Shown here: positions 29,824-32,408 of the stretch, piece by piece
Layout: each line of letters begins with the position of its first letter
How positions within the stretch are numbered: the first letter of the stretch is position 1
Source of the DNA: Flavobacteriales bacterium
GTDB lineage: Bacteria; Bacteroidota; Bacteroidia; Flavobacteriales; CAJXXR01
DNA: 64,000 bases
Assembly (NCBI GenBank): GCA_025210805.1
Contig: JAOAQX010000032.1
Location: 1 to 64,000 of the forward strand
Reading direction: 5' to 3'
Program-made: the position numbers and the translations under genes
Notes under the pieces: generated by a model
Seen by the model: only the letters and a program-made list of their open reading frames with translations
Databases searched by the model: none
Told to the model about the DNA's origin: nothing

Positions 29824-29853
29824 TTGGTAATTAAAATTTTATTCCAATATTTG
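29824..29853 (+). promoter_or_regulatory. Candidate promoter for leader 2 and rtcB
   Basis: TTG at 29824-29826, 19-nt spacer and AATATTTG at 29846-29853, one base off TAnnTTTG. It would start the transcript about 50 nt before leader peptide 2. Confidence 0.45.
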
Positions 29854-29913
29854 CATCGCAATAAAGCACAGAACCAAGAGTCATTATTTGATTCTTATAA
29901 ACAACGAAGTAAT

Positions 29914-30003
29914 ATGATTGATACATACACTTTTAGCCAAGGGCTCAGTCATTCTGTACCAAGTTTAGGTACAATGATGCTTCGTGATTACCCATCTATT
30001 TAG
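29914..30003 (+). CDS. Leader peptide 2 of the RtcB-PrfH locus (29 aa)
   Basis: ATG 29914 to TAG 30003. It begins MIDTYTFSQGLSHS and ends MMLRDYPSI. The codons from the second Met of MM to Tyr lie on the 5' arm of the antiterminator (29979-29991). A ribosome reaching the stop codon would cover that arm and let the terminator form. Upstream in the ORF, GTCAT..TGTACC and GGTACA..ATGAT form a preceding hairpin (29948-29978), as in classical leader segments 1:2. No run of one codon is present, so sensing of general translation rather than one amino acid is suggested. Confidence 0.55.
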   Translation: MIDTYTFSQGLSHSVPSLGTMMLRDYPSI

Positions 30004-30061
30004 TCTAAGAAAAGCAAATATGATTAGTAATCCGAAGCCCTAGAGTTTCGGATTTTTTTTT
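29979..30061 (+). promoter_or_regulatory. Attenuator 2: antiterminator and intrinsic terminator before rtcB
   Basis: Antiterminator: GCTTCG-(T)-GATTAC at 29979-29991 pairs with GTAATCCGAAGC at 30027-30038, 12 bp with one bulged T. Terminator: AATCCGAA (30029-30036) pairs with TTCGGATT (30047-30054), followed by a T run to 30061. Eight of the antiterminator's 12 bases on the 3' arm are the terminator 5' arm, so the two are mutually exclusive. The remaining spacer 30062-30209 to rtcB contains only short AT-rich repeats (TTGAATATTC at 30123 and 30153). Confidence 0.75.
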
Positions 30062-30209
30062 GCTACGGACTTTTTCCGAAACCGTTTTTTGAGTCGCAAT
30101 TTTTTCTTCTTGAACTATTTTCTTGAATATTCACTTGATGATTACTAGTGTGTTGAATATTCTTGAGTTTAGGAAGGCTAAGAGTCCATGCATTTAAAAA
30201 AAAAATATC

Positions 30210-31604
30210 ATGGCAAATAAAATGCGCGGGAAAGATTTGATAAGAATCGGTTTTCCCAAAAAAGGAAATAGTCTAAATATCGCTTTAGGACTTATAAACA
30301 GGTATCGTAAAAAAGAAAAAAAGGAAACGGTACTTCAAGAAGCGAAAGAAGTTTTGAAATCTCCAGAAATGTATATAAACGATACATTTTGGGCAAAAGT
30401 AGCCGAAGGATTAACAAAACCTGTAGAGGTACGCAGGCATGAGCTGATGAGTACTCGAGCTCCATTTAAAATTTTTGGAGAAGATGCCATAGACGATATG
30501 GCAAAATATCAACTGTATAGTGCCTTAAAACTACCTATTGCTAAAGCTGGAGCTTTAATGCCCGACGGACATGCAGGATATGGATTGCCTATAGGAGGTG
30601 TTTTGGCCTGCGAAAATGCGGTAATTCCTTATGGCGTAGGTGTGGATATTGGATGTAGAATGCGGTTAAGTGTTTTTCCTATTCCTGTAGATTATTTAAA
30701 AGGAAAGAGAGAGATGTTTGAAAGAATTCTACAAAATCATACCAAGTTTGGGATGAGTGAAACTCATGATAAAAAAATGGATCACGAATTATTCTCGAGA
30801 TCAGAGTTTCAAGACATTCCTATCCTAAAGCAACTTAAGAAAAAAGCTTATGATCAGCTAGGTACATCAGGAGGAGGAAATCATTTTGTGGAATTTGGCG
30901 CTCTAAGTATCTACGATGAAACAAATGCAATGAATTTATCTCCAGGAAAATACTTGGCATTACTTACTCATAGTGGATCAAGAGGTTTGGGAGCTAATGT
31001 GGCAAAACACTATACATATTTGGCAAAGAAACAATGTCCATTGCCTAAAAATGTAGAACATTTAGCTTGGTTAGATCTCAATACTCATGATGGTAAAGAA
31101 TATTGGCTTGCCATGAATTTGGCAGGAGAATATGCCAAAGCCTGTCATGATAATATTCATTACAGAATTAGTAAGCTCTTAGGAACAAGGTTTTTGGCTT
31201 CTGTAGAAAATCATCACAATTTTGCGTGGAAAGAAGTGCATCAAGGGCAAGAATTGATTGTCCATAGAAAAGGAGCAACTCCGGCATCCAAGGGAGCATA
31301 TGGAATTATCCCAGGAACCATGACAGAACCAGGTTTTCTAGTTCGCGGAAAAGGAAATGAAGCGTCTTTAAATTCCGCTTCACACGGAGCAGGAAGAAAG
31401 CATTCGAGGTCTGCTTGTAAAAGTAAATTTACAAAAAGTGATATCCGTAAGAAATTGAAAACACATGGAGTAAGTCTTATTGGAGGTTCTGTAGATGAAG
31501 CCCCGATGGCTTATAAAGATATTCATAAAGTGATGGAAGCTCAGACGGATTTAATTGAAATCGTAGGGAAATTTGAGCCAAAAATTGTGAGAATGAATAA
31601 GTAG
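30210..31604 (+). CDS. rtcB: RtcB-family RNA ligase (RtcB2 type, paired with PrfH)
   Basis: A 464-aa GTP/Mn-dependent RNA ligase joining 2',3'-cyclic phosphate or 3'-phosphate ends to 5'-OH ends. Motifs seen: MPDGHAGYGLPIGG, metal site GVDIGCRM (Asp146, Cys149), GGGNHFVEF, SHSG-like THSGSRGLG, HHNFAWKE, and the guanylylated-histidine motif SHGAGR (His392). Together with the adjacent prfH this matches the RtcB2-PrfH pair known to rescue and religate ribosomes cut in the 16S decoding centre. ATG 30210 is the first; ATG 30222 is an alternative. Expression appears gated by two upstream attenuators. Confidence 0.92.
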   Translation: MANKMRGKDLIRIGFPKKGNSLNIALGLINRYRKKEKKETVLQEAKEVLKSPEMYINDTFWAKVAEGLTKPVEVRRHELMSTRAPFKIFGEDAIDDMAKYQLYSALKLPIAKAGALMPDGHAGYGLPIGGVLACENAVIPYGVGVDIGCRMRLSVFPIPVDYLKGKREMFERILQNHTKFGMSETHDKKMDHELFSRSEFQDIPILKQLKKKAYDQLGTSGGGNHFVEFGALSIYDETNAMNLSPGKYLALLTHSGSRGLGANVAKHYTYLAKKQCPLPKNVEHLAWLDLNTHDGKEYWLAMNLAGEYAKACHDNIHYRISKLLGTRFLASVENHHNFAWKEVHQGQELIVHRKGATPASKGAYGIIPGTMTEPGFLVRGKGNEASLNSASHGAGRKHSRSACKSKFTKSDIRKKLKTHGVSLIGGSVDEAPMAYKDIHKVMEAQTDLIEIVGKFEPKIVRMNK

Positions 31605-31694: not shown

Positions 31695-32408
31695 ATGAAA
31701 ACTAAAATATGGCAATTAACTGCAGGAGCAGGTCCAGTGGAATGCCATTGGGTAGTTGCACAAGTACTCAAAGTCCTTTTGGAAGATCTTAAAAATAACG
31801 GAATAGATTATGAAATTCTTCATAAAGAAAAAGGAGCATTAGAAAGAACGCTCAAGTCGGTTATAATTCAAATAAAAGGGACAGGATTGTCGGAATTGTC
31901 TTCTAAATGGTGTGGAACCATTTTATGGGTTGGAACTTCTCAATATAGAAAATTCCATAAAAGAAAAAACTGGTATATCGCCTGCAAAGAGTGGGGTGTT
32001 TTGAAAGAAAAGACCTTACGAGATGAAGATTTAAAATACCAAGCCATCCGAGCATCTGGTCCAGGAGGACAGCATGTAAACAAAGTGAGTTCGGCAATTC
32101 GTTTAAAACATTTACCTACAGGTTTGCAGGTGGTTGCAAGCGAAAGAAGATCACAAAAAATGAATAAAAAACTGGCAAAAGAACGACTCAGTGAGAAACT
32201 CACGAATTTTGAGATGGATAAACTCCGTAAAGAAGTAAAAGAATACTGGAAAAATCATCAAGAAATAGAAAGAGGAAATCCTGTTAGAACTTTTAAAGGC
32301 AAAGATTTTAAGGCAAGTTTTGGAAAAAATAAAGAACGCAAAAAGCCTTATAAATCACAAAGACAAAAATTAAAAAATGAACTTGAGAAGATCCGCTTAG
32401 AAACTTGA
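31695..32408 (+). CDS. prfH: Peptide chain release factor homologue PrfH
   Basis: A 237-aa class I release factor-like protein. The N-terminal part (1-100) replaces the stop-codon-reading domain of RF1/RF2; no PxT or SPF tripeptide is present. The GGQ hydrolysis motif is at residues 124-126 (SGPGGQHVNK), followed by the RF signature VSSAIRLKHLPTGL and a long basic C-terminal tail. PrfH frees peptides from ribosomes with a damaged A site, after which RtcB2 can reseal the rRNA. It lies 90 bp after rtcB with no terminator between. The 1605-1694 spacer equivalent (31605-31694) holds no ORF. Confidence 0.92.
   Translation: MKTKIWQLTAGAGPVECHWVVAQVLKVLLEDLKNNGIDYEILHKEKGALERTLKSVIIQIKGTGLSELSSKWCGTILWVGTSQYRKFHKRKNWYIACKEWGVLKEKTLRDEDLKYQAIRASGPGGQHVNKVSSAIRLKHLPTGLQVVASERRSQKMNKKLAKERLSEKLTNFEMDKLRKEVKEYWKNHQEIERGNPVRTFKGKDFKASFGKNKERKKPYKSQRQKLKNELEKIRLET

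Follow-up and report, generated by a model that had tools for sequence, protein, structure and literature searches.

A conserved leader RNA upstream of rtcB-prfH in Flavobacteriales has the features of a ribosome-controlled transcription attenuator

The window, which is the whole 64,000-nucleotide stretch of Flavobacteriales DNA analysed here, encodes the ribosome-repair pair rtcB and prfH, and the identity of both genes, as given in an earlier note made from the sequence, was confirmed by Pfam RtcB and TIGR03072. Directly upstream, the same note had described a short open reading frame, a bulged 12-bp helix (29979-29991 with 30027-30038) and an intrinsic terminator, all of which are present as claimed. 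The features of the locus are as follows.

29824-29853, forward strand: Bacteroidota-type promoter-like site (TTG at 29824-29826, AATATTTG at 29846-29853), from sequence reading
29904-29909, forward strand: arm 1, ACGAAG, the putative anti-antiterminator; its partner is 29980-29985 (8 bp including a flanking U-G and A-U)
29914-30003, forward strand: leader ORF of 29 codons, reading MIDTYTFSQGLSHSVPSLGTMMLRDYPSI and ending with a UAG stop (30001-30003)
29955-29973, forward strand: small hairpin TGTACC/GGTACA within the leader ORF, from the predicted fold
29979-29991, forward strand: arm 2, the 5' arm of the antiterminator (GCTTCG, a bulged U, GATTAC), at the 3' end of the leader ORF
30027-30038, forward strand: arm 3, GTAATCCGAAGC, common to the antiterminator (with arm 2) and the terminator (with arm 4)
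30029-30061, forward strand: intrinsic terminator, with its stem at 30029-30054 (arms 3 and 4) and nine Ts at 30053-30061; -12.1 kcal/mol
30210-31604, forward strand: rtcB, an RtcB2-like RNA ligase with an N-terminal extension (Pfam RtcB, E=3.5e-84)
31695-32408, forward strand: prfH, peptide chain release factor H (TIGR03072, 233.8 bits against a cut-off of 166.65)

In the window, arms 2 and 3 form 12 Watson-Crick pairs with one bulged U. The pairing between the ORF and the terminator arm reaches -21.4 kcal/mol against a shuffle mean of -11.1, and only 6 of 5000 dinucleotide shuffles are as strong; thus, the 2:3 helix exceeds chance expectation. The terminator was also recovered independently by a consensus scan. 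Arm 1, which the earlier note had overlooked, ends 4 nt 5' of the leader ATG and is complementary to CTTCGT of arm 2. The arm geometry makes helices 1:2 and 3:4 compatible and together terminating, while helix 2:3 excludes both, so the addition of arm 1 to arms 2-4 gives the classic 1:2, 2:3 and 3:4 logic of an attenuator. The putative promoter was called against what we take to be the Bacteroidota promoter consensus, and relatives carry TATATTTGCACC at the matching position. At the site of the small hairpin inside the leader ORF, several relatives have a differing yet self-complementary sequence, as read by eye. Between the terminator and rtcB, at 30120-30170 of the window, lie two copies of the palindrome-containing TTGAATATTC, a possible regulator site.

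The conservation of this arrangement was analysed in 396 genomes of the order, 80 of which carry prfH; upstream regions with rtcB were readable for 79 of the 80, and loci from the same genus are not independent of one another. Arm 1, the leader ORF, arms 2-4 and the T-run are complete in 78 of the 79 loci; in the remaining one (L116) the leader is the same and the terminator has decayed. Across the 78 loci, the leader ORF is open over 19-29 codons and arm 1 keeps a fixed position, 2-5 nt 5' of the ATG, with ACGAAG or a pairing variant present in all annotated relatives. The distance from the start of arm 2 to the leader stop is 21 nt in 72 of these loci, and this fixed spacing points to the ribosome as the sensor. 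The leader stop is UAG, a codon recognised by RF1 only, in 74 of the 78 loci, compared with 39 of the 363 long ORFs of the same loci.

In about 30 of the 79 operons the gap between leader and rtcB is 750-1090 nt. The long gaps that were opened encode a basic protein, about 200-250 aa long and without a clear match in Pfam (L040, L041, L072, L090, L032, L267, and L189 from another order), which is likely a third operon component. Some loci have a second gene of the RtcB family, or a fragment of one, 5' of the rtcB-prfH operon: L188:1-422, L353:1-1044 and the upstream part of L095.

Over 20 distinct sequences, helix 2:3 is paired in 88.3% of cells and 26 cells carry double changes, a result matched by none of 500 shuffles, and sliding the partner lowers the pairing to 55% or less. 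Helix 3:4 is paired in 96.9% of cells in the same set, with 15 double-change cells. Arm 3 takes part in both of these pairings; as judged from sequence, antiterminator and terminator are mutually exclusive and both covary strongly. Helix 1:2 was counted from anchored arms and not from the MAFFT alignment. It is short and mostly invariant, its core pairing is kept in nearly all loci, and its outer pair becomes A-C in 17; since most of its pairs do not vary, covariation lends the anti-antiterminator modest support. Two loci (L094 and L095) nevertheless replace ACGAAG:CTTCGT by CTGAAG:CTTCAG through double compensatory changes, and a third (L082) has a G-C outer pair. In L094 and L095 the leader peptide reads LQ for LR (Arg to Gln) and the 2:3 bulge has moved, a shift by which all three helices survive. 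Another locus (L139) has a shifted bulge and a changed frame, keeps the pairing and places the stop at 22 nt; in L134 the ORF stops just 5' of arm 2 and the pairing is kept; and in L087 the distal half of 2:3 is swapped for an unrelated complementary pair. The claim of the earlier note that a translation-coupled transcription attenuator precedes the operon is thereby upheld: when the rtcB upstream regions of relatives are compared, conservation beside rtcB-prfH extends to the leader ORF and to each of the two alternative helices, with compensatory changes.

The earlier note had also proposed that absent as well as slow translation would free the antiterminator. In such a two-state switch arm 1 is idle, and the window taken by itself is compatible with it: over 29890-30061 the predicted OFF and ON folds are nearly isoenergetic (-36.8 and -37.5 kcal/mol), and the arm 1 match is statistically unremarkable there, being equalled by 195 of 5000 shuffles. 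In P. aeruginosa, moreover, removal of the leader region or a stop at codon 3 raises ArmZ, although the deletion also took 226 nt downstream of the leader start. The relatives speak against this version. The terminated state (1:2 with 3:4) is predicted to be the ground state in nearly all of them and lies lower than the antiterminated state by a median of 7.6 kcal/mol over 76 distinct loci, so that ribosome-free RNA should usually terminate, and an idle arm 1 does not fit its fixed place in 78 loci or the changes in L094, L095 and L082. We thus consider the two-state version improbable. Given arm 1, which would sequester arm 2 in ribosome-free RNA, and the predicted OFF ground state, absent translation should leave the operon off, and only translation that has started and not finished should turn it on.

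The leader peptide, by comparison, is weakly constrained, with a pN/pS of 0.62 against 0.67 and 1.03 in the other frames, so the coding status of the ORF rests on its open frame and stop position and not on codon statistics. The ratio is only mildly reduced in Chryseobacterium-type leaders, whose peptides resemble each other, while leader sequences vary almost freely between genera. Peptide conservation as the driver was rejected, given the weak pN/pS and the variants that alter the peptide while keeping the pairing. As far as the sequences tell, the peptide is less conserved than either the RNA pairing or the position of the ribosome.

These data bear on two further explanations. The leader might encode a small protein that has a function and a terminator of its own, with rtcB-prfH using another promoter; the ORF is indeed conserved and terminated, and the Chryseobacterium-type peptides are alike. 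The weak peptide constraint, the arm 2 pairing retained despite peptide changes in L094, L095, L139 and L134, and the fact that the element goes with rtcB-prfH rather than with other genes make this very improbable. An amino-acid-specific attenuator of the trp or his type has a precedent in the leader-peptide attenuation of amino-acid operons reported from flavobacteria (PMC9723704). However, neither the leader in the window nor the leader sequences of relatives contain a run of any one codon, as the earlier note had correctly observed for the former; the leaders differ between genera, and the controlled genes are not biosynthetic. We regard such an attenuator as scarcely credible here.

To what extent the element is confined to rtcB-prfH was assessed with R1, a covariance model that spans arm 2 to the T-run and was built on 20 of the loci. 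In the genome of the window, R1 scores 68.3 bits at this element and 39.7 at the next match. It reaches at least 52 bits in all 80 prfH genomes among the 396 searched; since 20 of these loci went into the model, this sensitivity is partly by construction, while the absence of matches elsewhere is unaffected. Strong matches away from a detected prfH occur in two genomes only. In one (G318) the element adjoins rtcB and no prfH was detected at threshold. The other (G314) holds an orphan element (L210, C1:3482504-3482585), which has neither rtcB nor prfH in its vicinity and is apparently left over from an operon since lost. The remaining matches score 50.7 bits or less; among those inspected, the highest-scoring (G008, 49.2 bits) and the second match of the window's genome both lack arm 2 and are plain terminators. 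We also rejected a general-purpose flavobacterial terminator or attenuator, as genomes without prfH, apart from G314 and G318, score weakly. The sequence comparisons thus argue for a genuine, deeply conserved regulatory RNA that is dedicated near-exclusively to rtcB-prfH.

Such a dedicated RNA might also be a riboswitch-like attenuator that binds a ligand or protein, with translation of the ORF incidental. The strong primary-sequence conservation in the arms would agree with this, as would the near-constant UAG stop. On the other hand, a search of the window with Rfam covariance models at the gathering score returned only one tRNA and no leader family, the pairing accounts for the conserved parts, and the constant distance from arm 2 to the stop favours a ribosome as the sensor. 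A riboswitch-like element is accordingly a highly improbable reading.

We then propose a model in which rtcB-prfH is preceded by a ribosome-controlled four-arm transcription attenuator whose input is leader translation that has been initiated and not finished, a reading to which we assign a probability of roughly 0.82. In a ribosome-free leader, arm 1 would pair with arm 2, the 3:4 terminator would form and the operon would be off. During normal translation, the ribosome at the UAG stop would occupy arm 2, the terminator would again form and the operon would likewise stay off. A ribosome that stalls early after initiation would instead cover or separate arm 1 and leave arm 2 free to pair with arm 3, which would block the terminator and allow rtcB-prfH to be transcribed. 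We infer both this step from stalling to read-through and the nature of the triggering stress: initiated but unfinished translation would be the state expected of drug-inhibited ribosomes or of ribosomes damaged in the decoding centre. It is plausible, and in line with all of the evidence, that damaged ribosomes could induce their own repair genes via the leader.

Outside the order, leaders were read by eye. A profile search of contigs returned mostly relatives of RF1 and RF2, together with named prfH loci in Chryseobacterium, Bizionia, Mucilaginibacter, Chitinophaga, Fulvivirga and Pseudomonas. In the order of genome G504, identified as Sphingobacteriales by comparison with named loci, one genus (g109) has the same CTTCG-type leader as the Flavobacteriales at three loci (L263, L264 and L265) and a decayed one at a fourth (L259). 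A different leader is found in two further genera of that order (g122 and g120) and in Mucilaginibacter, Chitinophaga and Edaphocola; its strongly conserved peptide is typically MTEQxYISPLSLIA followed by the stop, and long conserved blocks lie downstream (L188, L189, L247-L258, L261, L262, L271, L273 and L276). In these Sphingobacteriales and Chitinophagales loci, rtcB-prfH is thus preceded by another conserved leader RNA, unrelated to the first, with the conserved block AAAGGGTATATCC...GGACGAA, and an Rfam search of the leaders of the two orders gave no match. Fulvivirga, of the Cytophagales, has the leader MMVQKIHIALLTGMLAA, ending in a stop, and its own GACCGGG:CCCGGTC antiterminator over a terminator. 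Cytophagales rtcB-prfH leaders contain a strong AAGGAGG-like Shine-Dalgarno sequence, which is unusual in Bacteroidota, at L348:1320-1350 and at about 3300-3330 of L269.

Among Proteobacteria, uORFs of 13-15 codons led by a Shine-Dalgarno sequence were seen in E. coli, Proteus, a Pseudomonas and a Neisseriaceae genome, and their ends pair downstream. Those of E. coli (MTNPLSMTLCRPFQD, within L347:900-1060) and Proteus (MTTTNMNTLCGQSQK, within L352:1200-1361) both stand before rtcB2-prfH, and their complementary arms differ compensatorily from one species to the other. Judging from these sequences, the pairing of the uORF end could compete with a hairpin that covers the ribosome-binding site of rtcB, which would amount to translational attenuation. 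The region of the E. coli leader and rtcB start is at least partly present in 5347 of 5426 complete genomes. A wider proposal, to which we give somewhat less than even odds, is that the leader responds specifically to ribosomes that initiate but cannot decode, for example because of a cut in the 16S rRNA at the decoding centre. The very ribosomes that RtcB-PrfH repairs would then turn on the repair genes, and this logic would have arisen or diverged more than once, since the leader ORFs and RNA folds that precede rtcB-prfH in Bacteroidota and Proteobacteria are unrelated.

If the model holds, a two-gene ribosome-repair module becomes a complete damage-sensing circuit in which the ribosome itself is the sensor, and the circuit makes distinct predictions: off when initiation fails, on when translation is left unfinished. 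Leader ORFs before rtcB-prfH would appear to be common, well past the single known case of P. aeruginosa and with E. coli included, where ribosomes damaged by colicin E3 could be used directly as the inducer. The link through leader control would also connect the literature on MexXY and ArmZ regulation to ribosome repair.

The earlier note knew of no such control for this gene pair, yet the principle is already known from P. aeruginosa. There, armZ (PA5471, RtcB-like) and PA5470 (prfH) are cotranscribed, and ribosome-targeting drugs induce them by way of PA5471.1, a leader of 13 codons (PMC3516279, PMC12057347, PMC13041342). According to reviews and a 2026 study, a terminator forms from segments 3 and 4 when PA5471.1 is translated completely, and transcription reads through when the ribosome stalls (PMC3516279, PMC12057347, PMC13041342); the leader work is that of Morita 2009, as described in those three papers. 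The likeness to our element lies in the pair of RtcB-like protein and PrfH, the short leader ORF directly upstream, the proposed transcription attenuation and the 3:4 terminator on full translation. The differences are the 13-codon leader and the other phylum, and most discussion of ArmZ treats it as an anti-repressor acting on the MexXY pump and not in terms of ribosome repair. Induction by antibiotics or stalled ribosomes is reported for P. aeruginosa only. R1 has no match at the Pseudomonas prfH locus examined (L281), whose uORF is MQQLITPCRTCLV. In E. coli, RtcB2-PrfH protects against colicin E3, which cuts 16S rRNA within the decoding centre (PMC9223846), and ykfJ, the truncated homologue of strain K-12, is induced by 4-azaleucine, which interferes with translation (PMC3516279).

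Other attenuators share parts of this logic. The rli80/hflXr attenuator of Listeria (PMC6310831) also consists of a small ORF, an anti-antiterminator, an antiterminator and an intrinsic terminator, a stalled ribosome there leads to read-through, and the regulated gene helps ribosome rescue; however, its 14-codon ORF has the RLR stalling motif typical of macrolide resistance leaders, and its genes and sequence are unrelated. The toiL uORF of E. coli topAI (PMC12121999) is likewise a general sensor of translation stress, in which stalls at varied uORF sites alter RNA pairing, but it works on translation initiation and Rho-dependent termination and controls an unrelated gene. The flavobacterial amino-acid leaders (PMC9723704) use leader-peptide attenuation in the same bacterial family, but they sense amino acids and stand upstream of biosynthesis operons. 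In a literature search, mostly of openly accessible papers, neither the Bacteroidota element nor a leader before E. coli rtcB2-prfH was found described. What is new relative to P. aeruginosa is an unrelated, deeply conserved Bacteroidota version of this control, together with leader ORFs of other kinds that precede rtcB-prfH in Sphingobacteriales, Chitinophagales, Cytophagales and Enterobacterales.
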